DNA of 64,000 nucleotides from an uncultured Planktomarina sp. (GTDB taxonomy: Bacteria; Pseudomonadota; Alphaproteobacteria; Rhodobacterales; Rhodobacteraceae). This document shows positions 13,973 through 57,464 of this stretch, piece by piece (position 1 is the first letter of the stretch; every line of letters begins with the position of its first letter). The translations under genes were made by a program, and so were the position numbers. Location of the stretch: positions 62,001-126,000 of the forward strand of contig CAJJBZ010000002.1 in the NCBI GenBank assembly GCA_905182535.1, in the 5' to 3' direction. The notes beneath the pieces are model-generated. The model made no database searches. It was not told where the DNA came from and was given only the letters and a program-made list of their open reading frames with translations.

Positions 13973-14042
13973 GATGACTATCTTGACTCCAAACATCACT
14001 GATGGTCTGCTAGATACTTATAATTCTGAGGGGATTAAGCAA

Positions 14043-14753
14043 ATGGCGGCGGATGGCACAGCAACAAATATAGCCAGCGAATTGGCGAGCGATGTCCATA
14101 GCGGGCTGTTGCGTCCCGGTGACATGTTCCCCTCGGAACGTAACCTATGTGAACGATTTGGCGTTGGCCGGAGTATTGTCAGAGACGGAATGACCATTTT
14201 GCATGGTATGGGTCTCGCCGATCATACCAAGGGAACCCGCCCGCGTGTAGCAATTCCCACATTGTCACGTGTGATGCTTGGTGCGTCTGACGCTGCCCAG
14301 TATTTTTTTAAAGATAATGAAGGCCGCGCGCATTTACAGCAAGCTCGGCTCTTCCTTGAAACAAGCATGGTGCAGTATGCAGTTCAGAACGCCTCAAATG
14401 CCCAAATTGCAAAAATGGTTGGTGCCGTAGAAGAATGCGACGCGAACTTGGATAATATTGCCAGTTTCCGGAATGCGGATGTAAAATTCCACCACGCATT
14501 AGCCGAAGTACCAGGCAACCCAATTTTTGTAGCCCTGCATGAGACGTTTGTGGATCGCTTAATGAAGAGAGCTCCAATTAAGGATAACCATTTGGCCCAC
14601 AATCAAATCAGCAACGAAGGGCATAAAGAAATTGTTTCCGCTATTTTAGCCAAAGACACAGATGCTGCAGTTCGGTCTTTAACGGAACACTTAGTGCGAA
14701 ATAACGAAACGTTTTTACATCGTTCTCTCACCAACAAGATTGTAAAAACTTAA
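14043..14753 (+). CDS. FadR/FCD-subfamily GntR transcriptional regulator
   Basis: This 236-residue protein has a GntR winged helix (LLRPGDMFPSERNLCERFGV then GRSIVRDGMTILHGMGLAD). An all-helical FCD effector domain follows with the expected metal-ligand pattern: FRNADVKFHHALAEVPGNP and, near the end, HLAHNQISNEGHKEIVSAI. I start it at the ATG at 14043, which has GAGGGG nine bases upstream. The in-frame ATG at 13974 abuts the palindrome at 13959-13972 and lacks a ribosome site. The nearest downstream genes are the ABC transporter, so it probably controls uptake of the island's substrate. Confidence 0.83.
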   Translation: MAADGTATNIASELASDVHSGLLRPGDMFPSERNLCERFGVGRSIVRDGMTILHGMGLADHTKGTRPRVAIPTLSRVMLGASDAAQYFFKDNEGRAHLQQARLFLETSMVQYAVQNASNAQIAKMVGAVEECDANLDNIASFRNADVKFHHALAEVPGNPIFVALHETFVDRLMKRAPIKDNHLAHNQISNEGHKEIVSAILAKDTDAAVRSLTEHLVRNNETFLHRSLTNKIVKT

Positions 14754-14791
14754 CAATACCAGGCTAATAAGCCATAACCAACGGAGGAATA

Positions 14792-16414
14792 ATGTTTGAT
14801 AAAATTTTAGGAGTTGCGCTCGCAGCGGCCTTGCTTAGTGCAGGACCAAACCCTGCGACAGCGCAGGCCATTAACAGCGAACCACTGTCGGATCCCCGAG
14901 TTCGTCAGGCGATTGCATATGCAATTGATATGGATACGATTGTTGAGACCCTTTTCGAGGGCAAGGCGATTGCCGCTGACAGTATGTTGCCTAATGGACC
15001 GTTCAAGCCTGACGGTTTAAACCCGTACGCCTATAACCCGGACAAAGCGCGTGAGCTTTTAGCCGCTGCAAACTGGGACTCCAGCCGAGAACTGGATATG
15101 GTTTATTACTACGGCGACCAACTGACCGCTGACCTGATGGCCACTTTGCAGGCCTATCTGGGCGATGTGGGTGTCAAGATGACATACCGCAAATTGGAAG
15201 GCGATGTCGGCGCACAACTTACAACAAGACCAACCAATCCGGTCGATGGCACTTCCAACATTGCCTGGGATTTGGGCTACGGTGCTGCCGCGGCAACGGC
15301 TTTGCAGGAGTATTATAACCCCTACAAAACCGGTGGGACCTCTCACACGCCAAGCGACCCAAACTTGGATGGCATGATTGATGCAATCAATGCGACGGCC
15401 GATCCGGACAAACAGCGCCCTGCCTATTTCGAACTTCAGAAATACTGGAACACGAAATTGGACACTCTTCCTCTCTATTATCAGCAACTCTTTATATATG
15501 AGAGCAATAAGCTTAATCGGAATGGCGGTAGCTATGGTAACGAACAGTACAACTATGATACTGGCATCGTTAATTGGACAATGGAGCCTGACGCAAACGG
15601 CAAACAGATTATGCGAACAAACACAGCGCCTCCGCAATTCTTCGAACTTCCATGGGCAAACCTGGGTATTTGGATCACCTCGAAAGTTGTCTTTGATAAA
15701 CTGTTGTCTGCAGACGGGTCTCTTTCTGTTAATGGCGGTCAGCTTGCTGAAAGCTATTCAGTTGGTGCAGATGGCATGTCCGCCAGCTTTACTCTTCAGG
15801 ACGGTCTTACATGGCATGATGGTTCGGCTTTGACCGTTGGCGACGTTGCATGGAGCATCAAAACAGCGTTGCGGGTTCCACAGATTCATGCGGTTGTAGA
15901 AAACACGTTCACTTCCATCGAAGGTGGCCAAGCCTATCGTGATGGAGATGCAGATGACATCAGCGGGATTTCGACGGATGGCAACACGATCACGTTGACC
16001 ATGTCCAAACTTGATCCAAATATGCTGTTGACGTTTACTCAGTTTGCAATCTTGCCTGAGGCACATCTTGGTGACGAAGACCCGTTGCAGTTGCAGCAGT
16101 CATCGTTCTGGCAAAAACCGATTGGGTCTGGTCCGTTCAGAATCGAAGAAGTTCAGATGAACGACTTTGTGCGTTACGTTCCATTTGAAAACTATCACGG
16201 CGGAGTTGCTAAGATCGACGAGATCATTGCTACCCCTAGCCTTGATGGCGACGGTAACTTGTTGAAAAATGCTGGTGCTGGACAAATGGACTATGGCTTT
16301 ACCAAAAATGTTGCGGATGTGGCCGCACTTGAAGCAATGGCCCACATGCGGGTTATTGCAGCAGACATTCCGTACACACGGATGATATGGTTCAATAAGT
16401 TCCCTCGTAAGTAA
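14792..16414 (+). CDS. Periplasmic solute-binding protein (SBP_bac_5, DppA/OppA type) with circularly permuted domain order
   Basis: This 540-residue protein has a Sec signal peptide (cleavage near ATAQA at 22-26) and belongs to the peptide/opine/nickel binding family, but the family blocks are rotated. PLSDPRVRQAIAYAIDMDT (normally about two-thirds into the protein) is at residues 31-49, right after the signal. The usual N-terminal lobe is in the second half: LAESYSVGADG near 318, TLQDGLTWHDG near 334, IGSGPFRIEE near 444 and IWFN near 532, where the chain stops. The old C terminus joins the old mature N terminus around residues 264-282. The binding protein at 55800-57399 has the normal order. 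Start supported by CGGAGG. It heads the transporter operon. DppA-type SatABCD systems import sialic acid in Haemophilus ducreyi, which fits the downstream nan/nag genes. Confidence 0.85.
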   Translation: MFDKILGVALAAALLSAGPNPATAQAINSEPLSDPRVRQAIAYAIDMDTIVETLFEGKAIAADSMLPNGPFKPDGLNPYAYNPDKARELLAAANWDSSRELDMVYYYGDQLTADLMATLQAYLGDVGVKMTYRKLEGDVGAQLTTRPTNPVDGTSNIAWDLGYGAAAATALQEYYNPYKTGGTSHTPSDPNLDGMIDAINATADPDKQRPAYFELQKYWNTKLDTLPLYYQQLFIYESNKLNRNGGSYGNEQYNYDTGIVNWTMEPDANGKQIMRTNTAPPQFFELPWANLGIWITSKVVFDKLLSADGSLSVNGGQLAESYSVGADGMSASFTLQDGLTWHDGSALTVGDVAWSIKTALRVPQIHAVVENTFTSIEGGQAYRDGDADDISGISTDGNTITLTMSKLDPNMLLTFTQFAILPEAHLGDEDPLQLQQSSFWQKPIGSGPFRIEEVQMNDFVRYVPFENYHGGVAKIDEIIATPSLDGDGNLLKNAGAGQMDYGFTKNVADVAALEAMAHMRVIAADIPYTRMIWFNKFPRK

Positions 16415-16495: not shown

Positions 16496-17455
16496 ATGCT
16501 TATATATATTATTCGTCGTGTGCTGATTTTTATCCCCATGCTTTTGGTGATTAGTTTTCTGGTCTATGGCGCTTTAGAACTGACCCCTGGCGATGCAGTT
16601 TCCGCATTGATCAACCCCGAAGTCTCCGGTCGCCTGACCGAAGCCCAGTTCAACGAATTGCGTGAAGCTTATGGTTTGAACAAGTCTTTTCTCGCGCGGT
16701 ACGGAATTTGGCTCGCCAATGTCTTTCAGGGCAATTTCGGGCATTCCCTAGCGGGTGGCGTACCGATTTCGACAATATTTCTGGACAGATTGCCTGCGAC
16801 GCTAGAGCTGTCAGTGGTTGCCCTTTTGTTTTCCACTATTATGGGCTGCATCCTGGGTACATTTAGCGCTCTCAAGCGTGGCTCGATTGCCGATAGCAGC
16901 CTTACTGTGGTTGGTATGTTGGGTGTATCGATCCCTGAGTTTTTCTTTGGTCTGGTTGCCCTTTTGATATTTGCACTGAATTTGGGTTGGCTGCCTGTCG
17001 GCGGCCGCCTTTTGCCTGGGTATGATTCAATCTGGGATCGGGCTCCCCACATAATTATGCCTGCTATGGTCCTGTCTTTGATGATGACCGCCGGCGTGAT
17101 GCGTTACGCGCGTTCGTCAATGTTGGATGCGTTGAGCAAAGAATTTATCAAGACGGCGCGATCAAAGGGTCTACCAGAATGGCGCATCAACTTGATGCAT
17201 GGATTTCGCGTAGCCCTGACGCCTGTTGTGGTCCTCATCGGGTTCCGCCTTCCTTTGCTGATTGGTGGTTCAGTGATTATCGAGCAGGTCTTTCAATGGC
17301 CTGGAATTGGCAATGCGTTTATCGCAGCAGTTCGCGGCTCTGACTATCCACTGGTGATGATGATCGCCCTATTTTCGGTATTTTCCGTGCTGCTGGCTAG
17401 TTTAGTGATTGACGTGCTGACGGCTTTGATCGATCCGCGCGTTCGATTAAATTAA
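16496..17455 (+). CDS. ABC transporter permease, DppB/OppB type
   Basis: This 319-residue inner-membrane permease has an N-terminal helix MLIYIIRRVLIFIPMLLVIS, PGD in TPGDAVSALINPE, and a periplasmic stretch including LARYGIWLANVFQGNFGHSL. Four to five further helices follow, with the EAA-type loop EFIKTARSKGLPEWRINLMHGFR contacting the ATPase. Together with the next three genes it forms a complete dipeptide-type importer with the permuted binding protein. It starts 81 bases after the binding-protein gene, past a GC-rich hairpin. Confidence 0.9.
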   Translation: MLIYIIRRVLIFIPMLLVISFLVYGALELTPGDAVSALINPEVSGRLTEAQFNELREAYGLNKSFLARYGIWLANVFQGNFGHSLAGGVPISTIFLDRLPATLELSVVALLFSTIMGCILGTFSALKRGSIADSSLTVVGMLGVSIPEFFFGLVALLIFALNLGWLPVGGRLLPGYDSIWDRAPHIIMPAMVLSLMMTAGVMRYARSSMLDALSKEFIKTARSKGLPEWRINLMHGFRVALTPVVVLIGFRLPLLIGGSVIIEQVFQWPGIGNAFIAAVRGSDYPLVMMIALFSVFSVLLASLVIDVLTALIDPRVRLN

Positions 17456-17466
17456 GGGGGCACTAA

Positions 17467-18381
17467 ATGGTTTCACGTTCACTTAACAAAAAATTCGATA
17501 AAATTCTGGCTCGTGAAGAGGCGGGAAATTTAACTTCCAAGACTGGTAACAGATCCCTGCGGAAAATGATGAATAATCGTTTAGCGGTTGTCGGTCTGAT
17601 CTTGTTCAGTATCATCCTTTTCACCGCAGTTTTTGCACCGCTGATAACCAGCGCTGATCCCATGAAGATTAACCTTCGTAATATGTCGCAACCACCATCG
17701 TGGGAACACTGGTTTGGCACCGATAAAACTGGTCGTGATGTCCTCGCGAGGGTCCTCTATGGCGGTCGAGTTTCAATTCTTGTGGGCCTGGGGAGCGGCA
17801 TTATATCTGCGATTATTGGCGTTCTGATTGGAGCCTACACTGGATACAAGGGCGGGTGGTTGGATGTAATCGCTTTGCGTGTTTCCGAATTATTCATGTC
17901 TTTCCCACAAATCATTCTTGTACTTCTGTTGGTCTCAATCATCGGTCAAAGCCTAATCAATCTGATGATTATTTTCGTGCTCACCGGATGGGGTGGTATG
18001 TATCGAATGGCGCGGGCGCGAATGCTTTCGCTCCGCGAGGAAGAATACGTGCAAGCCTTACAAAGCTTCGGTCTGTCAACTCCAGTTATTTGCTACAAAC
18101 ATATCCTGCCCAATGCCTTGGGACCGATCATGGTGAACATTACGCTGTCGACTGCAGCCTTTATTTTGGCCGAGGCTGGCCTAAGTTTCCTGGGTTTAGG
18201 TGTGCCTGCTCACATTCCGACCTGGGGCAATATCTTAAATGTCGCTCAGGAAATCCGCGTTTTGCAGAATTACTGGTGGATGTGGTTACCAGTAGGCGCG
18301 ATAATTTCGCTTTTTGTTCTAAGTGTTAATTTCATTGGGGATGGTTTGCGTGATGCAACCGACCCGTCGCAGCAGGGTTAG
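17467..18381 (+). CDS. ABC transporter permease, DppC/OppC type
   Basis: This 304-residue permease has a cytoplasmic N-terminal tail followed by a first helix LAVVGLILFSIILFTAVFAP, the HWFGTDKTGRDVLARVLYGGR signature of DppC proteins, and the EAA loop EEYVQALQSFGLSTPVICYKHILPN. AEAGLSFLGLGVPAHIPTWG precedes the last helix. Its start lies 11 bases after the DppB-like gene and GGGGG precedes the ATG. It is the partner permease of the 16496 product. Confidence 0.9.
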   Translation: MVSRSLNKKFDKILAREEAGNLTSKTGNRSLRKMMNNRLAVVGLILFSIILFTAVFAPLITSADPMKINLRNMSQPPSWEHWFGTDKTGRDVLARVLYGGRVSILVGLGSGIISAIIGVLIGAYTGYKGGWLDVIALRVSELFMSFPQIILVLLLVSIIGQSLINLMIIFVLTGWGGMYRMARARMLSLREEEYVQALQSFGLSTPVICYKHILPNALGPIMVNITLSTAAFILAEAGLSFLGLGVPAHIPTWGNILNVAQEIRVLQNYWWMWLPVGAIISLFVLSVNFIGDGLRDATDPSQQG

Positions 18382-18385
18382 TATT

Positions 18386-19399
18386 ATGCAAGCAGCACAT
18401 GACATAGCGCTCAGCGTCAAAGACCTAAAAACTTATTTTTACACCAACAATCGCTGCAATAAAGCAATCAACGGCGTATCTTTTGAAATCCGCAAGGGCA
18501 AGACATTATGCGTTGTGGGCGAAAGCGGTTGTGGGAAAAGTGTGACGGCTTCAACTATCATGCAATTGTTGCCAGCACTTTCCCGTATCGAGCAGGGACA
18601 AGTTACATACCACAGCGACAACGGCGACGTTGAAATTGAAAAGCTAGAACGCGATGGGCAAGAAATGCGCGCAATTCGTGGCTCTGAGATTGCGATGATA
18701 TTTCAGGATCCAATGACCGCGCTGAACCCAGTTTATACAATTGGTTTCCAGATTGGCGAAAGCCTGAAATATCACACTAATCTGAATTCGAAAGAAATCC
18801 GAGAAAGAACCATCGATCTACTCCGCGATATGGGGATATCTCTTCCCGAAATGCGGGTCGACGATTATCCGCATCAATTTTCTGGCGGGATGCGCCAGCG
18901 TGCGATGATTGCGATGGCCATGTCCTGTAATCCGAAGATCTTGATCGCCGATGAGCCTACGACCGCACTTGACGTCACCATTCAGGCGCAGATTTTTGAG
19001 CTAATGGAAAAGCTGAAGACCGAACATGAAACGGCGATCATGCTGATCACCCATGACATGGGCGTGGTGGCAGAATTGGCAGACGACGTTGCGGTCATGT
19101 ATATGGGTAACATTGTAGAAGCTGGAACCGTAGACCAGGTTTTGCGTAATCCTGTACATCCATACACACGTGCACTGCTTGATTCCATTCCGGTTTTGGG
19201 CAAGGGTAAAGACCAGATTATTTCACCTATCTCCGGCTCAACCCCAGACCCTTATAATCGTCCTATCGGATGTCAATTTGCCCCACGCTGTTCTTATAAA
19301 ACCGACGTATGTGACGTAATGCCCGAAGAGGTTAACGTGGACAAGACGCGCCGTGTAATGTGCTGGAATTATAAGGATTTGTTGCCAAATGGGGAATGA
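18386..19399 (+). CDS. ABC transporter ATP-binding protein, DppD/OppD type
   Basis: This 337-residue ATPase has Walker [10 protein letters not shown]-loop [12 protein letters not shown], signature FSGGMRQR, Walker [13 protein letters not shown] and switch His in LITHDMG. The oligopeptide C-terminal domain carries a Cys-rich motif [15 protein letters not shown] start at the ATG at 18386, five bases after the permease stop, rather than at the longer in-frame ATG at 18323 that lies inside the permease gene. The stop overlaps the next ATPase by 11 bases. Confidence 0.9.
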
Positions 19400-20402
19400 T
19401 GACGATCACATACTAAGATTGCGTGGGGTCAAGACCCATTTTCCTGTAAGGGCAGGTCTTCTGAAGCGCACAGTAGGACACGTGAAGGCCGTCGATGGCG
19501 TTGACTTAGATGTTCGTCGTGGAGAGGTTTTGGGCTTAGTAGGCGAGAGCGGTTGCGGTAAGACCACCTTGGGCAAGTCAATTTTGCGGCTAGTTGAGGC
19601 GACGGAGGGTGAAATTTCTTATTCGTCGGGCGACGAAGAAACCAATTTGGCGACTTTGAACAACGACGAGATGATCCCGTTCCGCAAACGCCTTCAGATT
19701 GTTTTTCAGGACCCCCACTCATCTTTAAATCCTGCCTTCACGATATTTGGATCGCTTCAGGATCCATTGAAGAAATATGGGGTAAAGACTAAAAAAGAGC
19801 GACGCAAAATCATAGGTGACCTGTTGGAAGCTGTGAACATGCGCCGCGAATACATGGACCGCTATCCGCACGAGTTTTCCGGCGGCCAGCGCCAGCGGAT
19901 CGGCATAGCTCGGGCTCTAAGCGTCGAACCCGAACTGATTGTCTGCGATGAGGCGGTCAGTGCGCTTGATGTTTCTATCCAAGCACAAGTTCTTCAGTTG
20001 TTGATGAAGCTGAAAGAAGAACGAAACCTGACCTATATTTTCATCACTCACGATCTTAGCGTCACGGAATACATTTGCGATCGGATCGCCGTTATGTATC
20101 TTGGGCGCATTGTTGAACTGTGCCAATCTGAAGATCTGTATTCTAATACGATGCACCCCTACACAGAGGCGCTTTTGTCGGCCATCCCAGTGGCTGATTT
20201 GGACAAGCAAACCAAACGGATTGTCCTAGAGGGCGACGTGCCAAGCCCGGTTAACCCACCGAGCGGCTGTCCATTTCATCCAAGATGCCCCAAGGCTTTT
20301 GACAAATGCAAATCTGATGTGCCTACCCTGAAACGCTATGTCGTTGATGGGAGAGACCATTTTGCATCCTGCCACCTAATTAAAATTCCTGAAACCCCAT
20401 AG
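19389..20402 (+). CDS. ABC transporter ATP-binding protein, DppF/OppF type
   Basis: This 337-residue ATPase has Walker [10 protein letters not shown]-loop [12 protein letters not shown], signature FSGGQRQR, Walker [13 protein letters not shown], and FITHDLS. The C-terminal oligopeptide motif is [14 protein letters not shown]. Walker B reads DEAVSALD, as is common in OppF proteins. It is the last transporter gene, coupled by overlap to the DppD-like gene; the N-acetylneuraminate lyase-like gene follows 60 bases later, linking uptake to catabolism. Confidence 0.9.
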
Positions 20403-20462: not shown

Positions 20463-21392
20463 ATGCCAAAATTTGATCTGAGCGATGCAAAGGGTGTCAT
20501 TCCCGCACTGATTACACCCTTTGATGAAAATGAACACTTTGACGAAACGCGGATGCGCAGCTGTGTTGATTTTCTGATCGAGCGAGGTGTTGGTGGGCTG
20601 TATACAACCGGAAGCACCGGCGAGACGTTCTTGATGTCACCTGATGAACGTGCATTTGTCGTTGAAGTTGTTGTTGATCAGGTTGCAGGACGAATTCCAG
20701 TGATAGCCCATGTGGGCGCAATTGGTACCCATCTGTCGGTGGACCTAGCCCAAAAGGCGCAGGCCGCTGGTGTAGATGCGATATCCTCTGTGCCGCCTTT
20801 TTATTGGCCTTTTACACCTGATCAGGTAGTTAATTATTATACAGACCTGACCAAATCGACTGACCTGCCCATGGTGGTTTATAATATACCTCTTGCTGGG
20901 ATGTTGGGCTTTGACCAGATCGCAAGGCTTGCTGCCATTCCAGGTGTTGGCGGAATTAAATACACGGCGCCAACGGTATTTGATTTTTTACGCATTAAGG
21001 AAGAAATCGGTGCGGACTTTCGCATTTTTTCCGGGTCCGATGAATTGGCAATGGCTGGTCTTGGGTTTGGTGCGGACGCAATCATCGGGTCTTTTTACAA
21101 TTTGATACCTGAGGTTTTTATTGCTCTTTCTGAAGCTGTTGCCAAGAATGACATGGCTCTTGCAAAAGAGTTGCAGGCAACAGCAAACGCGATCATTTTC
21201 TTTTCGCTGAATTATTCGGCGACCGCCGTCATCAAGCGCGGTATGGCATGGCAAGGGGCGGATGCAGGGTATTGTCGAAGGCCATTTGATAATTTTTTTA
21301 CCAAAGGGGAAGAGGAAAGTCTAAAAACCGCGTGGCGTAAACTCAAGCAAGATCGAAATATTAACGGCGTCGCGTTTCTAGACGTCCTCTAA
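20463..21392 (+). CDS. nanA: N-acetylneuraminate lyase-like aldolase (DHDPS/NAL family)
   Basis: This 309-residue class I aldolase has TTGSTGETFLMSPDER (carboxylate-binding GSTGE), VVYNIPLAGM with the catalytic Tyr in the YNIP form typical of sialic acid lyases, GGIKYT with the Schiff-base Lys, and IIGSFYNLIPE late in the barrel. NAL cleaves N-acetylneuraminate to N-acetylmannosamine and pyruvate. NanE-NanK, NagB and NagA downstream supply every later step to fructose-6-phosphate, which supports the assignment. GGAAAATATA precedes the ATG. The family also includes dihydrodipicolinate synthase and keto-sugar-acid aldolases, so a related nonulosonic acid remains possible. Confidence 0.78.
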   Translation: MPKFDLSDAKGVIPALITPFDENEHFDETRMRSCVDFLIERGVGGLYTTGSTGETFLMSPDERAFVVEVVVDQVAGRIPVIAHVGAIGTHLSVDLAQKAQAAGVDAISSVPPFYWPFTPDQVVNYYTDLTKSTDLPMVVYNIPLAGMLGFDQIARLAAIPGVGGIKYTAPTVFDFLRIKEEIGADFRIFSGSDELAMAGLGFGADAIIGSFYNLIPEVFIALSEAVAKNDMALAKELQATANAIIFFSLNYSATAVIKRGMAWQGADAGYCRRPFDNFFTKGEEESLKTAWRKLKQDRNINGVAFLDVL

Positions 21393-21416: not shown

Positions 21417-22722
21417 ATGGGTAAGGGTCAACGCCTCTACACAAAAGCTAAGACCCTCATTCCCGGAGGGAATATGCTATTATCCAAACGTCCAGAAATG
21501 TTTTTGCCAGACCAGTGGCCGGCATATTATAGTCGCGCTAAGGGCTGCAGTGTCTGGGATTTAGACGATGCAGAGTATATTGATATGTCGATCATGGGCG
21601 TTGGGGCCAAATGTCTTGGGATATGCGCATCCCAAAGTTGACGAAGCCGTTCGAAACAGCATCGGCGACGGAAATCTGTCCACACTCAATGCGCCCGAAG
21701 AAGTCGCTTTGGCCGAACGCTTGGTGGACTTACATCCTTGGGCCGATATGGCTCGGTTCGCGCGAACCGGTGGAGAGGCAAATGCCATTGCTATACGTAT
21801 TGCACGCGCAGCTAGTGGCCGCGACAACGTAGCAATCTGTGGATACCATGGTTGGCACGACTGGTATTTGGCAACAAACCTGAGCGATACTGGCAAACTG
21901 GATGACCATCTACTTCCAGGGCTGGATCCAACTGGTGTTCCCCAAAACCTAAACGGTAGCACGCACCCATTTCGCTATAATGATTTTGAGGGGCTTGTTT
22001 CGCTTGTTGAAGAAAAAGACATCGGCACCATTAAGATGGAGGTGATGCGGAACCAGCCACCTAAAGGATTATTTCTTCAAAAGATCCGTAAGCTTGCAAC
22101 AGACCGTGGCATCGTTTTAATCTTTGACGAATGCACGTCGGGCTTCCGGCAAAATTTCGGTGGTCTGCATCTAAATTTTGGCGTGTCACCAGACATGGCG
22201 GTCTTTGGTAAAGCACTTGGAAATGGCTACGCTGTGACCGCAGTTCTAGGCAAACGCGATATTATGCAAGCGGCCCAATCGACTTTTATATCCAGTACAT
22301 TTTGGACAGAACGTATCGGTTCGATTGCTGCTTTAGCTACACTTGATGTGATGGAAGAAGAGAAACCGTGGGATGGGATTATAGCTGTTGGGAATGGTAT
22401 TACGCAGCGCTGGCATGAGTTGGGTGCAAAGTATAAATTGCCAATTTCAACTAGCGGCATACCGTCTCTGAGCAGCTTTACGTTTAATAGTCCAAATAAT
22501 TTGGCTTACAAAACTCTGATAACCCAACAGATGCTGACACAAGGGTTTCTAGCGGCAAGCAGCGTCTATGTCTGCACAGAGCATACTCAAAAAATCATAG
22601 ACGACTATTTCGCGGCGTTAGAGCCAATATTTGCGCTTATTCAGGAATGTGAGGGCGGTCGGGATATCATAGATGAGCTTAATGGACCGGTTTGCCATAG
22701 CGGCTTCAGTCGCCTCAATTAG
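21417..22722 (+). CDS. Class III aminotransferase (GSA-aminomutase-like), interrupted by one-base frameshift
   Basis: The reconstructed protein has about 434 residues. AKTLIPGGNMLLSKRP opens the protein. The frame breaks at VGAKCLG, and dropping one A from AAA at 21609-21611 restores VGANVLGYAHPKVDEAV. Later motifs are RTGGEANAIAIRIARA (PLP phosphate loop), YHGWHDW, LIFDECTSGFR (Asp to pyridine N) and VFGKALGNGYAV (PLP Lys), as in glutamate-1-semialdehyde aminomutase-type enzymes. It lies between the NAL-like gene and a class IV aminotransferase. The amino acceptor is unknown; an amino-bearing sugar or keto acid of this pathway is an inference. The ATG at 21417 is preferred to the TTG at 21411. 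Confidence 0.78.
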
Positions 22723-22762
22723 GTTAGGCCGTGTCAGCCGTCTTTTAAAAAAGGGAAGTTAG

Positions 22763-23674
22763 ATGTTTGAACGACAAGTTTATATTTCTGGGACCATGGT
22801 TCCAGAGTCGCAAGCTCGAATATCCATTTTTGATAGCGCAGTTATGTTAGGCGATACGGCTACGGAATCTACGAGGACGTTTGGGCATCATCCATTCAGG
22901 TTGGCAGAACATATAGATCGGCTTTATAAGTCTCTAAAAGTAATGCGAATTGATCCTGGTATGGATGCCACTGAAATGTTGCAGACGACTCAAAACGTGC
23001 TCCAGGCCAACTTGCAATGTTATGCCCCCGACCAGGATTGTTGGATTGTCCACAACATTTCTCGTGGACTGTCGGTTCCAGGTTCTGACCCAACCCTAAC
23101 CGGCAGCGGCGCTACAGTTATGATTTTCACCCAGCACATGTGCTTACGCAGTTGGGCACAATTTTACACCGATGGCTGCCACGCAGTGACGTCTATGAGC
23201 CGAGCAGTTCCGACCCAATCGCTGGATGCCCGGATAAAAAATCGAAGCCGGCTCGCTTATACGTTGGCAGAATCCGAGGTCAAATTAGTTGATCCTTTGG
23301 CGCAAGGCGTAATTCTGGATATCCACGGTAATGTTTCGGAAAACAAAGGCGGAAACATATTTGTCGTATCTGGAGGCGTTCTTAAGACACCAACAACAGC
23401 CAATTGTTTGGCCGGCATGAGTCGCGCTACTGCATTAAAGCTTGCGGATGGAATGGGTATTCCTGCAGTCGAAACTATTCTGCAGCCGTATGATTTAGCA
23501 ACGGCTGACGAACTATTTTTCACCAGTACTCCCTATTGCATCATGCCAGCAACGCGTTTTAACGGTTTGCGCGTTGGAGATGGAACGGTTGGTCCAGTCA
23601 CGATACGACTTCTTAACGCTTGGAGCGAAATGGTCGGCTTAGACATAGTGAAGCAAGCACAGGATCAACTATGA
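22763..23674 (+). CDS. Class IV aminotransferase (branched-chain / D-amino-acid aminotransferase-like)
   Basis: This 303-residue fold IV PLP enzyme has SIFDSAVMLGDTATESTRTF at the N terminus, FRLAEHIDRLYKSL, SLDARIKNRSRLAYTLAE with the PLP Lys, DIHGNVSENKGGNIFVV with the conserved Glu, and ADELFFTSTPYCIMPATRFNG near the C terminus. GGGAAGTT precedes the ATG. The stop overlaps the next gene by ATGA. With the class III aminotransferase it provides an amino-transfer pair inside the sialic-acid-type operon. The substrate cannot be read from sequence. Confidence 0.85.
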   Translation: MFERQVYISGTMVPESQARISIFDSAVMLGDTATESTRTFGHHPFRLAEHIDRLYKSLKVMRIDPGMDATEMLQTTQNVLQANLQCYAPDQDCWIVHNISRGLSVPGSDPTLTGSGATVMIFTQHMCLRSWAQFYTDGCHAVTSMSRAVPTQSLDARIKNRSRLAYTLAESEVKLVDPLAQGVILDIHGNVSENKGGNIFVVSGGVLKTPTTANCLAGMSRATALKLADGMGIPAVETILQPYDLATADELFFTSTPYCIMPATRFNGLRVGDGTVGPVTIRLLNAWSEMVGLDIVKQAQDQL

Positions 23675-24639
23675 CTAGGAATCTGAATTCCATCACAGAC
23701 CACAAGCCTGCCCAAGACCCCGTTGGTATAGATCGACCTACTGGCATTTGGGGCGCGGTCTTGCTACCACTAGACAACAGTGGGGGGATAAACTGGACCG
23801 CTCTGACTGAAGAGTTAGAAATCCTTTGCGAAACCGATCTCGCAGGGATCTACAATAACGGATCTGCTGGTGAATTTCATAATCAGACAGATGCTGAGTT
23901 CGACAGGATTGCAGATACCGTCTCTGACGTTGCACGGAAATTCGGTAAGCCGTTTCAGATTGGCGTAAGTTGCACGAACCCGCGTGTCGCTAAGCAACGG
24001 CTCGAGCGTGTTCGTGAACTTGGGGCTACTGCAGTTCAGTTCACACTTCCCGACTGGTGGCCACCTTCATCATGTGAAGTTTTTCGATTTGTAGAAGGAA
24101 TGCAATGTTCCGCCCAAGATACCCCGTTAGTAATTTATAACCCACCTCATGCCAAAGTACGGCTTTCGCTTAGTCAGCTTTACGAACTACGATCAGTTGC
24201 GCCTGGGCTGGTCGGTGCAAAACTATCAGGTGGTGACAGTGATTGGTACGAACAACGTCGTAAACTTGGATTGGATTTTTCGGTGTTTGTGCCTGGCCAC
24301 ACAGTTGCATTTGGTCGACCACAAGGAGCTGACGGATCCTATTCGAATGTTGCATGCCTGAGCCCAAACGGCGCAGTTCGACTGTGGAATTTGGCTGGCT
24401 CTGATCCCGATGCGGCACAAGCTCTCGAAATTCGTATCCAAATTTTTCTGAAAAAATTTGTACTTCCATTGGCAAAAAGAGATGGTTTATCTGATCCCGC
24501 TCTGGATAAATTATTGACCGCAGCCGGTGGGTGGGGGCCAGTCGGCCCAGCGTTATTATGGCCGTATTCTTCTGCTACAGCTGATGACGTTAGTGCAATT
24601 TCTCGCGCTGCTAGGAAGTCTATTCCAGAACTATTTTGA
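23671..24639 (+). CDS. DHDPS/NAL-family aldolase, second copy
   Basis: This 322-residue protein has a divergent version of the family motifs: IYNNGSAGEF in place of GSTGE, LVIYNPPHAKV with the catalytic Tyr, and LVGAKLSGG with the Schiff-base Lys. The insert LPDWWPPSS has no counterpart in the NAL-like paralogue at 20463. The open frame extends back to 23620, but the ATG at 23671 overlaps the aminotransferase stop by four bases and gives a normal family N terminus. It probably cleaves a different keto-deoxy sugar acid or acts on an intermediate made by the aminotransferases; this is inference. Confidence 0.8.
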   Translation: MTRNLNSITDHKPAQDPVGIDRPTGIWGAVLLPLDNSGGINWTALTEELEILCETDLAGIYNNGSAGEFHNQTDAEFDRIADTVSDVARKFGKPFQIGVSCTNPRVAKQRLERVRELGATAVQFTLPDWWPPSSCEVFRFVEGMQCSAQDTPLVIYNPPHAKVRLSLSQLYELRSVAPGLVGAKLSGGDSDWYEQRRKLGLDFSVFVPGHTVAFGRPQGADGSYSNVACLSPNGAVRLWNLAGSDPDAAQALEIRIQIFLKKFVLPLAKRDGLSDPALDKLLTAAGGWGPVGPALLWPYSSATADDVSAISRAARKSIPELF

Positions 24640-24674
24640 CCGTGTCATCAATTTTACTACAGGAGACAGGACTA

Positions 24675-26288
24675 ATGCAAAAGATACTTTCTATCAGGAC
24701 AGCATCAATTCTGAAAAAATTGAAAGGTGGTTTAGTCGCATCCTGTCAGCCAGTAGATGGCGGCACCCTGGATCATCCAAAGATCGTCACGGCCATGGCA
24801 CAGGCTGTAATTTCCGGCGGTGCAGTTGCGGTTCGCATTGAGGGCGTCGAAAATTTAAAGGCAGTAAGACAAGTAATCACCGCGCCAATCATTGGAATTA
24901 TAAAATCAGACAGCAACTCGTCACCGGTGCGCATTACAGTTTTCCTAGATGACGTAAAAAAACTAGTTCAGGCTGGTGCCGACGTTGTGGCTTATGATGC
25001 GACCGATCGCTTTCGTCACGATAGTCGTGATGAAATTTTGAAGGCCATACTTGATGCAGGCGTAATTGCGATGGCCGACTGCTCAACTTTGGCTGATTGC
25101 GAAAAAGCACGGGACGATGGTGCAAATATTATAGGCACAACGTTATCAGGTTACACGCGAGAAACAGAGAAAAACAGCAGAAATCCTGATTTTGAGCTGA
25201 TCCGGCAAGCTAAAAAATTGGGTGTCTTTGTTATGGCCGAAGGCCGCTTTAACACGCCAGAATTAGCCTCACGTGCTATTAGGGCCGGCGCAGATGCTGT
25301 CACTGTTGGCACCGCACTAACAAGGCTTGAGATTATAACAGCGCGTTTCGCAAAGTCTATTCATTGCGCTAACAAGAAAAGCAAACTAAACGGATTTGCC
25401 GTTGATTTGGGAGGCACAAAAACGGCAGTAGCAAAGATTGAATCCGGAAAAATATTCAATGTAATTGAACGCAAAACGATTGGTACTGCAAGTTATGGCA
25501 CTCATCTTAAACTTATTGCCGAGATGCTCTCTAAATTGGGTTATAGGAAGGGCGATCAGTTGGGTGTGGCCGTGACGGGGCGTGTCGATGAGGAAGGAAG
25601 ATGGTATGCTGTAAACCAAAGTACATTGGGAAAATTTTCATCTGCACCCCTTCAAACTGATTTGATCAAAAATATTGGGCCTAGCTCCGTTATCAATGAC
25701 GCTTTGGCGGCGACACTAGCCGAGCATCAATTGGGGTCTGGTGAGGGTCACCAAAATTTTGCTTTCATTACTATTTCTACTGGCGTTGGCGGTGGGCTAA
25801 TTTTGAATGGACGTTTACACACGGATGCCAGCGGTCTTCCTGGCCATGTCGGATTTTCTTCCTCACTGTTTGGCAATAAGCTCTGTAATTCTGGTCGATA
25901 TGGCACTGTCGAAAGTGTTGCCAGCGGAAATGCAATTGCATCAGCTGCAGCCGCGATAGGATATCCTGATGCTGACGCCCGTGCAGTTTTTAAGGAAGCA
26001 AACGCTGGCGTGGCTTGGGCCGTTGAATTAGTGGATAGATCAGCAAGCGCGATTGCCGAATTGACGGCTGATCTTGTCACAATCCTTGGGATCACAAAAA
26101 TAGCGTTTGGGGGAAGTATTGGCCTGGCTGACGGCTATCTAGATCGCATTCAGAAACACTTGCATGCCATGCCAAACTTGTTTCAAGCTCAACTTGTTAC
26201 CGCAGACTTCGCTGCACATGGCCCGCTAATGGGTGCGCTACTCAATACTAATAGAGAAAAAACTGATGAAAATACTCATTTTACCTGA
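24675..26288 (+). CDS. nanEK: Fused N-acetylmannosamine-6-phosphate 2-epimerase / N-acetylmannosamine kinase
   Basis: The protein has 537 residues. Residues about 1-225 are a NanE TIM barrel: LVASCQPVDGG at the start, PIIGIIKSD, GADVVAYDATDR, IMADCST-like AMADCSTL, IIGTTLSGYT, VMAEGRFNTPE and AVTVGTALTR. From about 236 a ROK kinase begins with AVDLGGTKTAVAKI, followed by STGVGGGLILNG and LPGHVGF. The ROK zinc site is reduced: relatives have CxCGxxGC, here CNSGRYGT keeps only one Cys. NanE-NanK fusions are known in sialic acid clusters. The start at 24675 follows AGGAGACAGG; the longer TTG start at 24636 lies in the preceding gene. The stop lies 23 bases inside nagB. Confidence 0.88.
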   Translation: MQKILSIRTASILKKLKGGLVASCQPVDGGTLDHPKIVTAMAQAVISGGAVAVRIEGVENLKAVRQVITAPIIGIIKSDSNSSPVRITVFLDDVKKLVQAGADVVAYDATDRFRHDSRDEILKAILDAGVIAMADCSTLADCEKARDDGANIIGTTLSGYTRETEKNSRNPDFELIRQAKKLGVFVMAEGRFNTPELASRAIRAGADAVTVGTALTRLEIITARFAKSIHCANKKSKLNGFAVDLGGTKTAVAKIESGKIFNVIERKTIGTASYGTHLKLIAEMLSKLGYRKGDQLGVAVTGRVDEEGRWYAVNQSTLGKFSSAPLQTDLIKNIGPSSVINDALAATLAEHQLGSGEGHQNFAFITISTGVGGGLILNGRLHTDASGLPGHVGFSSSLFGNKLCNSGRYGTVESVASGNAIASAAAAIGYPDADARAVFKEANAGVAWAVELVDRSASAIAELTADLVTILGITKIAFGGSIGLADGYLDRIQKHLHAMPNLFQAQLVTADFAAHGPLMGALLNTNREKTDENTHFT

Positions 26289-27042
26289 TAAAACCGCAGC
26301 CGTATCCTCTGCTGCAAGAACGCTCGCTGACAAAGTCAGAGACCAACCAACTGCAATTCTTGGGCTCGCAACAGGGGAGACAATGATTCCGCTTTATCGT
26401 GCGATATTAGAAATCTCGGTAACCGAATTTCTATCATTTTCCAAGATTTCAACGTTTAACTTAGATGAATATGTTGGTCTTCCTTTTGACCATTCAGCTT
26501 CATTCCGTACGTATATGCAGAATTGGCTATTTCAACACGCAGATTTCAATCCAGAGCTCACTCATTTTCTGGATGGCGATGCCAAGGATCTAATTTTGGA
26601 AACCAGTCGTTATGAAAAACTGATCGCTGATGTTGGTGGCATTGACTTGCAATTGCTGGGAATCGGCGAAAATGGCCACATTGGTTTCAACGAACCATCT
26701 TCGAGTCTGGCTTCAAGAACCCGCATTAAGACTTTGACCAAAACTACCCTTGAGGCAAACAAGATCCACTTCAAAGACATAAAAAAAATGCCACTATATT
26801 CACTGACAATGGGCGTCGGCACAATTTTGGATAGCCGCCAGTGCGTTCTTTTAGCGACTGGCTCAAAGAAAGCATCTGCAGTTGCGCAGATGATAGAGGG
26901 TCCAGTAACCGCTACCTGCCCTGCGTCAGCACTGCAATTTCATCCAAACACTCTAGTCATTCTTGATGACCAGGCTGCCCGTGACCTCAAAATGCGTGAC
27001 TATTACGAATATGTTCATCCTGGAATAAATAATGTTACGTAG
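26266..27042 (+). CDS. nagB: Glucosamine-6-phosphate deaminase
   Basis: This 258-residue protein has all the NagB landmarks: LGLATGETMIPLY, TFNLDEYVGL, LLGIGENGHIGFNEP with the catalytic Asp/His/Glu environment, and a closing HPNTLVILDDQAA. It converts GlcN-6-P to Fru-6-P plus ammonia in the cytoplasm. I start at the ATG at 26266 inside the end of nanEK, giving MKILILPDK, the usual family N terminus, rather than at 26233. The stop overlaps nagA by 11 bases, so nanEK-nagB-nagA are tightly coupled. Confidence 0.92.
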   Translation: MKILILPDKTAAVSSAARTLADKVRDQPTAILGLATGETMIPLYRAILEISVTEFLSFSKISTFNLDEYVGLPFDHSASFRTYMQNWLFQHADFNPELTHFLDGDAKDLILETSRYEKLIADVGGIDLQLLGIGENGHIGFNEPSSSLASRTRIKTLTKTTLEANKIHFKDIKKMPLYSLTMGVGTILDSRQCVLLATGSKKASAVAQMIEGPVTATCPASALQFHPNTLVILDDQAARDLKMRDYYEYVHPGINNVT

Positions 27043-28205
27043 AGAGACGAGAAAATGCCCCATCCAATTTGTTTTCGCAAAGACGCTTTTCGATGGTGGG
27101 CTCGAACCGAGGTTTAACATCCTTATAGAAATTGAGAATGGGCGGATAAAGAGCCTTTGCGGTCTCAATGAAAAAGACGTTCCTCTTAATGCACTCAACG
27201 CCCCAATCGTGGCGCCTGGTTTTATTGATATCCAAATCAATGGTGCGATGGATCGACAATTCACAGATGATCCAACGCTTGAAGCCATAGAGGCGATCGC
27301 AACCGGAGCCCGCCAAGGCGGCACGGCCCACGTTCTTCCAACTTTCACGACGGCACCTGGCGAAACATACCTAACGGCACTGAGGGCCGTTGAAAAAGCA
27401 GTTACAATAGGTGTTCCCGGGGTTTTAGGAATGCATCTTGAGGGTCCGTTCTTAAGTCCTAAAAGACCAGGCATTCATTCCGTGGACAATATACGACCAT
27501 TAGAAGATCAAGACATCAAAAATTTAGGTGAATTCAAGGGCGGTAAACTGCTCGTAACAATAGCACCCGAACACCAAGCCGATGGGATGCTCAAAAAATT
27601 GGTAGCAACGAAAGCGATCGTGTTCGCTGGCCACAGTGATGCGACAGAAAGCCAAATCAGGATTGCGGAAGTAGGTGGTTTAGTAGGAGCCACCCATCTC
27701 TTTAACGCAATGTCTCAGATGACAGGGCGTGCGCCAGGTATTGTCGGTGCTATCTTATCGTCAACTTCGCTTGCGGCAGGAATTATCGCTGATGGACACC
27801 ACGTATCTTGGTCAAACCTAGCGGTCGCCGCACGATTATTACCAGATCGACTTTGCCTAGTCACGGACGCAATGAGTACGCTGGCAGGGAAAAACACCCA
27901 ATTCTGTATTCATGGGAAAACCGTCAGGTTGAAAGATGGCAAAATTACGGATGATAATGGTCGATTAGCAGGTGCACATATTGCCATGGATGAATGCGTT
28001 CGTAACACAATTCGATATGCGAATGTTACGCCGGCGAGGGCAGTTGCAATGGCATCCAAAAACCCAGCAAGCGTGCTGGGATTACATCAAGAACTTGGTT
28101 CGATCAAGGTTGGGTACAGGGCATCACTAACAATTTTCAATAAAGACATGGAGACATCAGCCGCTAAAGAACGGCGAAATAATCAAAGCAGAAATGCCCG
28201 TCTGA
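27032..28205 (+). CDS. nagA: N-acetylglucosamine-6-phosphate deacetylase, C-terminal frameshift
   Basis: Canonical NagA motifs are present: APGFIDIQINGA, GMHLEGPFLSP, FAGHSDATE, THLFNAMSQM, IIADGHHVS and LVTDAMSTLAG with the catalytic Asp. The uninterrupted frame continues to 28258 with a lysine/asparagine-rich tail unlike the family. The next frame instead reads LKNGEIIKAEMPV and a stop at 28205, the expected NagA ending, so one extra base is likely around 28150-28170. The reconstructed length is about 390 residues. It removes acetate from GlcNAc-6-P. Last gene of the operon; the ATG overlaps the nagB stop. Confidence 0.88.
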
Positions 28206-28400
28206 ATTACAATTTTGAGCAAGAACTCACACATGATAAAATGCAGTGCTACTTCTAGATTTTATTATTGCCTATAGACGTCACCTTTTCTTAAGCAATC
28301 CGTCAGGCTTTAGGTGGCCGTGGCCCCTGCAAACAGGTCCTATCAATTACTCCCATCGAGATGGTTGCAATCTAAGAAGGCACCAGCAAAGACTAATAAA

Positions 28401-55799: not shown

Positions 55800-57399
55800 A
55801 TGATGACTAAAAAGTTTATAGCTCAACAGCAAAATAAATTAGCAAACGGGATTATTGGTCGCCGTCAGTTTATGATGTCGGTATTAGCAACGGGTCTGGC
55901 AGTGCCTGCAGTTTTGAGCCTAGCCAACAAAGCGGAGGCAGCAGCACCAAACCGCGGCGGCTTATTCAGAATGGGTCTTGGCCACGGCAGTACTACTGAC
56001 TCACTAGACTCGGCTACCTCTGAGAACCATTTCACTTTGGTGAATGGTTATACGTTTGCAAACCATTTGACCGAAGTTAACAATAATGGCGAGCTGATTG
56101 GCGAATTGGCCGAAAGCTATGAGTCATCAGATGCTCAAAAATGGGTGTTTAACCTTCGGCAGGGTGTTGAATTTCATAATGGCAAAACCCTGACATCTGA
56201 AGATGTCATTGCCTCTTTTAATCATCACATGGGTGAAGACTCCACTTCTGCTGCAAAAGGCCTTTTAGTAGCAGTCAAGTCAGTAACTGCAGATGGAAAA
56301 AACCGAGTAATTTTTGATTTGGAAGCTCCAAACGCTGACTTCCCGTTCATCGTAAGTGATTACCATATTTCTATCCGTCCTGCTGGGGATATGACGTCAG
56401 GCATCGGAACCGGTGGCTACGTTGTGCAATCGTTTGAGCCAGGCGTGAAATGTGTTTTAAAGCGCAACCCGAATTATTGGAAGGAAGGGCGTGCACATTT
56501 CGATGAGGTTGAGCTGTTATCAATTGTTGATCCAACAGCGCGTCAAACTGCTCTAATGAACGGTGACATTGACGGTATGGATCGTGTTGATTTGAAAACG
56601 ATTAATTTGTTTAAGATGAACCCAAATGTGAATATTTTGGAGACTACGGGTACTGCGCACTATACTTTCCCAATGCGTTTGAACGTTGATCCTTTTGGCG
56701 ATTATGATCTAAGAATGGCGTTGAAGCATTCAATTAGACGCCAAGAGCTTGTTGACAAAATTCTACTTGGCTATGGAGCTGTTGGTAACGACCATCCAAT
56801 TTCTACAGCTAACCGGTATCACAACTCTGACTTACCACAGCGTGAGTTTGATGCTGATAAGGCCGCATTCCATTATAAAAAATCAGGCCATTCAGGAAAA
56901 ATTCAGCTTTCAGCAGCAGACGCAGCATTTTCAGGAGCAGTGGATGCGGCACAATTGATAGCAAACTCGGCATCTGAAGCGGGTATTGAGATTGAAGTGG
57001 TCCGCGAGCCAAATGATTGCATACTGGTCAAATGTTTGGAACAACGACGCTAAAGGTTGGTGTGCATGCTATTGGGGTGGTCGTCCAACTGAAGATTGGA
57101 TGTTCTCTGCAGCTTATACAAATGACACAGAATGGAACGATACCAATTGGAAAGGGACCGATGGTTCCAAGCGGTTCAACCGTTTGGTAAAGGAAGCACG
57201 GGCTGAGCTTAATGATTCAAAGCGTAGAGAGATCTACTATGAGTGTCAGCACCTTATCAGTGACGATGGGGGTTCAATAGTTCCATTGTTCAACAGTTAC
57301 GTTGGCGCCAACAGTAAAGCGGTTGCGCATGATGAACAGGTTGCGGCTAACTGGGATACTGACGGCGCAAAATGTGTCGAACGTTGGTGGTTCGCTTAA
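55800..57399 (+). CDS. Tat-exported solute-binding protein (SBP_bac_5), interrupted by one-base frameshift
   Basis: The N terminus carries a twin-arginine signal, GRRQFMMSVLATGLAVPAVL to KAEA. The mature protein follows the usual order of peptide/opine/nickel binding proteins: LAESYESSD, FNLRQGVEFHNGKTL, GTGGYVVQSFE, KRNPNYWKEG, then DYDLRMALKHSIRRQELV. The frame changes at REPND; removing one T from TT at 57017-57018 gives NDAYWSNVWNNDAKGW and a 532-residue protein. AGGGAG precedes tandem ATG codons at 55800 and 55803. It heads the second ABC transporter. Its normal block order contrasts with the permuted 14792-16414 protein. Confidence 0.85.
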
Positions 57400-57464
57400 C
57401 TTTATGCGTTATGCTTAGGCTGGAAACTTCTGGCCTAAGCACCAATCTTTAAGGTAATAAAATT

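Follow-up and report, generated by a model that had tools for sequence, protein, structure and literature searches.

Evidence for natural circular permutation in a cluster C solute-binding protein encoded beside Dpp-type transporter genes

Introduction

Solute-binding proteins of family 5 (PF00496, cluster C) typically carry their N lobe before their C lobe. Here, we study a gene of an uncultured Planktomarina sp. in which the two parts stand in swapped order and ask whether it encodes a natural circular permutation, i.e., one protein that was cut and re-closed, and whether its product is still a working binding protein. Such a permutation had been proposed in an earlier note made from the DNA letters. 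General routes to circular permutation include duplication with trimming as well as fission with fusion (PMC3320104). Given the results below, we consider it very probable that the protein, termed P0001, arose by a genuine, old circular permutation within cluster C and works as a binding protein. Coordinates refer to the window, that is, the whole analysed stretch of 64,000 nt.

Results

Gene structure and swapped chain order

P0001 is an open reading frame of 540 aa with an ATG start at 14792-16414 (+), which we annotate as a circularly permuted family-5 solute-binding protein based on the ORF, Pfam, an alignment to DppA and a rotation test. All features of the gene and of its operon are on the + strand. 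The ribosome-binding site claimed by the earlier note can be read off the sequence as ggagga at 14783-14788. A putative signal peptide, assigned by eye, covers residues ~1-25 (14792-14866), where the structural model shows a low-confidence helix at residues 5-15. Alignment to relatives places the usual C-terminal half first (residues 31-264; 14882-15583) and the usual N-terminal half last (residues 274-540; 15611-16411). The linker TMEPDANGKQIMR (residues 263-275; 15578-15616), likewise found from alignments, connects the former C terminus with the former start of the mature protein. The translation agrees with the landmarks given in the note, i.e., the C-lobe block PLSDPRVRQAIAYAIDMDT is located at residues 31-49, LAESYSVGADG starts at residue 318, and the protein terminates with ...IWFNKFPRK. 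The binding protein at 55800-57399, which had been named as an internal control, indeed shows the usual order but lacks an intact frame: its ORF stops at 57053 and family-like sequence resumes in another frame. Given this frame loss, the gene at 55800-57400 may be a pseudogene or contain a sequence error.

The Pfam profile PF00496 matches P0001 with 197.5 bits (cut-off 32.4) in two stretches, the best of which places residues 317-535 on profile positions 5-207. When aligned to DppA (8z1z_F), residues 300-487 correspond to chain positions 60-251, while residues 27-103 correspond to 299-376. That is, P0001 is homologous to PF00496/cluster C proteins across both lobes without showing their typical N-lobe-before-C-lobe order and is thus a permuted variant of cluster C rather than a typical member.

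We then rotated the chain, as the note had proposed, using 52 starting points in 10-residue steps, and scored each version against a profile built from 12 usual-order relatives. The unrotated protein yields two domains of about 300 bits each. The maximum is found for rotation at residue 265, for which the two half matches become a single co-linear domain of 622 bits. These scores are far above chance level. Against the same profile, all 42 permuted proteins (see below) are swapped, and the reciprocal test gives the corresponding result for 12/12 usual-order proteins.

Permuted relatives

A scan with one genome per species resulted in 42 loci, 38 of which encode full-length proteins with swapped halves. 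L037 is swapped but frame-broken and L039 is cut at a contig end; the remaining two loci are the close usual-order relative L042 and the distant usual-order protein L046. With the window and three additional genomes (L070-L072) included and identical copies removed prior to counting (e.g., L073, identical to L006), the search for same-order orthologues advised in the note provides 42 distinct full-length permuted proteins including that of the window. Their hosts are Alphaproteobacteria, a few other Pseudomonadota, Spirochaetota, Myxococcota, Bacillota and unplaced lineages. Two of the genes are located on isolate chromosome records, namely those of Devosia rhodophyticola (NZ_CP118247.1) and Breznakiella homolactica (NZ_CP067089.2).

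The subfamily, covering permuted and usual-order proteins, is rare and scattered. In a sample from the window's phylum, it is found in 1/398 genomes, which is the window's own, and among near relatives of the window genome in 2/101, own included. The phylum sample around the spirochaete G004 has 4/296 (G004 included), and the sample around G002 2/291, i.e., G002 itself and one usual-order genome. E-value limits were 1e-40 or 1e-60 in these scans, and for the samples of 398, 291 and 296 genomes just 3-4 candidates per genome were given full scoring. Viral contigs and plasmids showed no subfamily match at the limits used.

The permuted gene is under purifying selection. For the window gene, dN/dS is 0.053 to each of its two nearest relatives, a rough value given a dS of about 1.7; compared with L007, dS is saturated. 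No permutation intermediates, such as tandem or extra half copies, were observed in 54 full-length family proteins, each of which contains each half once.

Some permuted loci show individual features. In Devosia algicola (L037, 3965-5622) the permuted gene is split across reading frames. The ORF of D. rhodophyticola (L008, 3959-5536) starts without a clear signal peptide, such that its start or the upstream frame may be off. Furthermore, L018, L019, L020, L022, L026, L031 and L043 form a permuted subgroup with a shorter usual-N half (match of ~252-254 vs. 266-269 residues).

Usual-order orthologues

Usual-order relatives were found in 12/225 genomes of the order of Proteiniclasticum, its own included. 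This clostridial set comprises L042 (Proteiniclasticum ruminis) and 11 genomes of the same order (L055-L065). After rotation, its proteins are 43-60% identical to the permuted ones (mean 49.2), compared with 17-29% identity of three outgroup proteins to the family. When the halves are treated separately, permuted and usual-order proteins are on average 46.4% and 52.5% identical, while the respective means against the outgroups are 23.3% and 23.9%.

The genes dppBCDF are found downstream in 11/12 usual-order loci; the contig of the twelfth is too short. In those 11 loci, identity to the window is 60-62% for DppB, 63-68% for DppC, 68-72% for DppD and 68-72% for DppF. Within the one-per-species scan, DppB and DppC follow in 40/41 family loci, the exception being L039 with its contig end. 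Since close unpermuted orthologues thus stand beside the same transporter genes, the permutation is visible between near relatives.

Both orders also share conserved residues: 84/509 alignment columns are at least 95% conserved with the same residue in both, 53 of which are common to the outgroup protein L095, and just 7/509 columns differ near-fixedly between the two groups. The note had considered that the new terminus could change hinge motion or ligand choice; this conservation suggests that the ligand was kept across the permutation. A lipobox-like motif, identified by a simple pattern, is present in 12/12 usual-order but only 3/42 permuted proteins.

Breakpoints and predicted structure

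In usual-order proteins, the loop in question reads YTRLFYxNKFxKxDGxxSPLAD with small variations. Permuted proteins end 2-7 residues past the NKF position, and their mature part starts shortly ahead of the LSD/LAD block. At the other junction, the usual C terminus lies 3-5 residues beyond a conserved tryptophan. In permuted proteins this tryptophan (W262 in P0001) is followed by the linker and then by the old mature N terminus. The linker has 13 residues in 39/42 permuted proteins and 10 in three, with a frequent PDxxGK turn.

The structure prediction that the note had called for was done with AlphaFold2 based on an alignment of 35/42 permuted proteins (A1; seven near-copies left out). The single chain of P0001 is modelled with confidence (pLDDT 89.7, pTM 0.84). 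For the usual-order protein L042, with an alignment of 12 sequences, the model is poor (pLDDT 55.6). Two prominent long strands are assigned by DSSP in the P0001 model, namely residues 225-238 (15464-15505) and 519-534 (16346-16393). By alignment, we infer the latter to be the first hinge crossing, which ends directly before the new C terminus such that its onward connection is cut, and the former to be the second, continuous one by which the lobes would still be covalently linked. A Foldseek search with this model gave cluster C proteins among its best 50 matches, with 212-307 columns aligned and TMq values of 0.28-0.37; such a partial alignment fits a permutation but is no proof of lobe packing. 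On the profile level, none of the best 60 of 67 PDB matches is a chain spanning the permuted profile. For the usual-order profile, several PDB chains match in a single long stretch, e.g., 8efz_A over 55-553.

Taken together, the rotation test, the same-order orthologues, the close unpermuted orthologues and the confident model support the natural circular permutation that the earlier note had proposed. The rearrangement may be pictured as follows. The old termini would have been joined through a short turn and the loop behind the first hinge-crossing strand opened, with the signal peptide set ahead of the C lobe. The mature protein would adopt the usual two-lobed shape and close on its ligand, its lobes being covalently linked by one hinge strand out of two while the remaining one terminates at the new C terminus. 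Presumably, the permuted form docks on the same type of permease as the unpermuted one.

Alternative explanations and history

The swapped order could be an assembly or binning rearrangement in this single metagenome-assembled genome, which is incomplete (74.41%, 16 contigs). The same order and the same flanking dpp genes are, however, found in many independent assemblies; the permuted orthologues on isolate chromosome records in particular set this explanation aside, and with the order conserved across independent assemblies we reject it as having next to no probability. Only marginally more credible is a fusion of halves from two different binding proteins, for which the same order of halves would be expected. 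Here, the same usual-order clade is nearest to both halves, and separately computed trees of the halves agree in dividing permuted from usual-order proteins by one change each and in the side of the root, which argues for one protein cut and re-closed instead of two joined. Since the rotated chain furthermore gives one co-linear match, we reject the fusion as well.

The direction of a permutation is less clear. In the trees, one change separates permuted from usual-order proteins when the outgroup is not counted; the binding-protein trees were computed without the broken L037 and the cut L039, and the DppBCDF tree without L016, L039, L046, L086, L087, L090, L092 and the window's second operon. 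Rooting by distant binding proteins, permeases/ATPases, a closer outgroup, or the halves leaves the direction of change unsettled. The subfamily ancestor could already have been permuted, such that the clostridial clade went back to the usual order through a second permutation. In fact, the usual-order clade nests inside permuted rows in the best binding-protein trees for three outgroup sets as well as in the trees of each half and of DppBCDF, and permuted monophyly is observed in only 0% (distant outgroups) and 2% (outgroup L095) of 200 bootstrap trees. Nevertheless, the AU test does not reject monophyly of the permuted rows, with p-values of 0.258 (distant binding-protein outgroups), 0.273 (DppBCDF) and 0.459 (L095, the nearest outgroup found, a usual-order protein of on average 33-34% identity), and the log-likelihood of such a tree is only about 1 lower in each of these comparisons. 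The outgroup branches are moreover very long and able to pull the root. Since the clostridial proteins are similar to L095 in their hinge loop and C-terminal end, and one event is simpler, we favour a single permutation and regard a second one as unlikely. If it were true, one binding protein would have been cut and re-closed twice with conserved residues and permease kept, and the choice of the covalent hinge strand would be nearly neutral in evolution for the cluster C fold.

Operon and likely ligand

The gene of P0001 is accompanied by genes for a Dpp/Opp-type permease and ATPases. The full transporter operon claimed beside it is present downstream, with genes for a DppB-type permease (16496-17455), a DppC-type permease (17467-18381), a DppD-type ATPase (18323-19399; longest ORF, the true start may be further in) and a DppF-type ATPase (19389-20402), assigned by profile search and, for the ATPases, the respective ORFs. 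Profile searches also identify the surrounding genes. Upstream, a GntR/FCD regulator (13974-14753) has NanR as its best NCBIfam model with 190.3 bits, which is below the cut-off of 260. After dppF, a DHDPS-family aldolase (20463-21392) matches best N-acetylneuraminate lyase, with 248.5 bits again below the cut-off (281). Further downstream are genes for a NanE-like epimerase plus ROK kinase domain in one ORF (24636-26288), a NagB-like member of the glucosamine-6-phosphate isomerase family (26233-27042) and a NagA-like amidohydrolase (27032-28258).

The nan-type operon contains further genes. At 21568-23674, it encodes glutamate-1-semialdehyde-aminomutase-like and branched-chain/D-amino-acid-aminotransferase-like proteins, which perhaps serve a modified nonulosonic acid, and at 23620-24639 a second DHDPS-family protein. 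A relative (45%) of the aminomutase-like gene precedes the binding protein in L015, L016, L017 and L044.

Catabolic nan genes within the operon, as in a SatABCD-like importer, are thus found for the window and in part for its relatives. A NanA-like gene directly follows dppF in the window, in 10/10 usual-order loci that reach that far (L074-L083; 48-55% identical to the window's) and in the permuted loci L085 and L087. NanE is present in 27/43 permuted and 11/12 usual-order genomes, with no match in 16/43 permuted ones. It lies within 20 kb of the locus in 16/43 permuted and 10/12 usual-order genomes, i.e., 26/55 family genomes, where contig ends depress the counts. Since NanE is also matched in 5/14 unrelated control genomes, its presence alone tells little.

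Based on the nan-type genes of the operon, the ligand is probably sialic acid or a related nonulosonic acid. Genomes without NanE may import another acid of the nonulosonic class, or the proposal fails there. The nan-type genes might also be incidental and the system serve for peptide or nickel uptake, as with DppA and NikA, whose families are the nearest characterised ones by profile. We think this improbable: the nine NCBIfam matches of P0001 are all far under their cut-offs, and the NanA-like gene after dppF as well as the proximity of NanE speak against it. Sialic acid is hence a more likely ligand of the P0001 transporter than peptide.

Discussion

With P0001 and its relatives, conserved natural permutation of ABC binding proteins would extend to a second fold class. 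As near relatives exist in both chain orders with the same transporter genes adjoining, the two forms are directly comparable and provide a natural test of whether both covalent hinge strands are required in a flytrap binding protein. The group furthermore directs attention to scattered, putative importers of sialic acid, and its chain order escapes annotation based on a domain profile alone.

Among titles and abstract openings of open-access papers, in two cases the top 20 of 144 and the top 20 of 29, we found no cluster C protein with a natural permutation and nothing on SiaEFGI; what was found are engineered cases and TpMglB-2 (Tp0684), the glucose-binding protein of Treponema pallidum. TpMglB-2 is a natural permutation for which the name 'Type Ic / cluster Bc' was proposed (PMC4990184). 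Like P0001, it is a conserved natural permutation of an ABC-importer binding protein that changes the hinge connection; it is described mostly from treponemes and Gram-positives and retains ligand binding (PMC4990184). The two differ in fold, TpMglB-2 being of Type I / cluster B while P0001 is a cluster C protein beside a Dpp-type permease, and in the effect of the cut, which adds a fourth hinge crossing in TpMglB-2 but would open one of two hinge strands in P0001. That is, P0001 shares the permutation that defines cluster Bc without its Type I / cluster B fold, as it matches PF00496 and structures of peptide and nickel binders, and cluster Bc is a parallel case to P0001, not its class. As a possible reason for the permutation, the authors of TpMglB-2 suggested membrane tethering (PMC4990184). 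This does not explain the P0001 type well: the lack of a lipobox-like motif in 39/42 permuted members speaks against tethering as a general reason, although lineage and tethering are confounded in our set.

Within cluster C, DppA, OppA and NikA (PF00496) are homologous to P0001 over both halves but differ by their usual order, low identity, and NCBIfam cut-offs far above the scores of P0001. SatA of Haemophilus ducreyi (5z99, 5yyb, 5za4), the Neu5Ac-binding protein of SatABCD, has domains joined by two beta-strands that act as a hinge (PMC11364026). It is sequence-related to P0001 and binds sialic acid, as proposed here for P0001; among the best 60 of 67 PDB matches to the permuted profile, its match is short and weak, covering positions 36-102 alone, which correspond to chain positions 251-318 at the place expected for the usual order. 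This narrow match, like the permuted genomes lacking a NanE match, counts against the ligand proposal. The closest systems are the usual-order orthologues (L042 and 11 others), which share dppBCDF, the NanA-like gene and, after rotation, about half of their residues with the permuted proteins, and which differ from them in chain order and in the lipobox-like motif. The P0001 group is thus a permuted group within cluster C, while natural permuted binding proteins are already known from another fold class.
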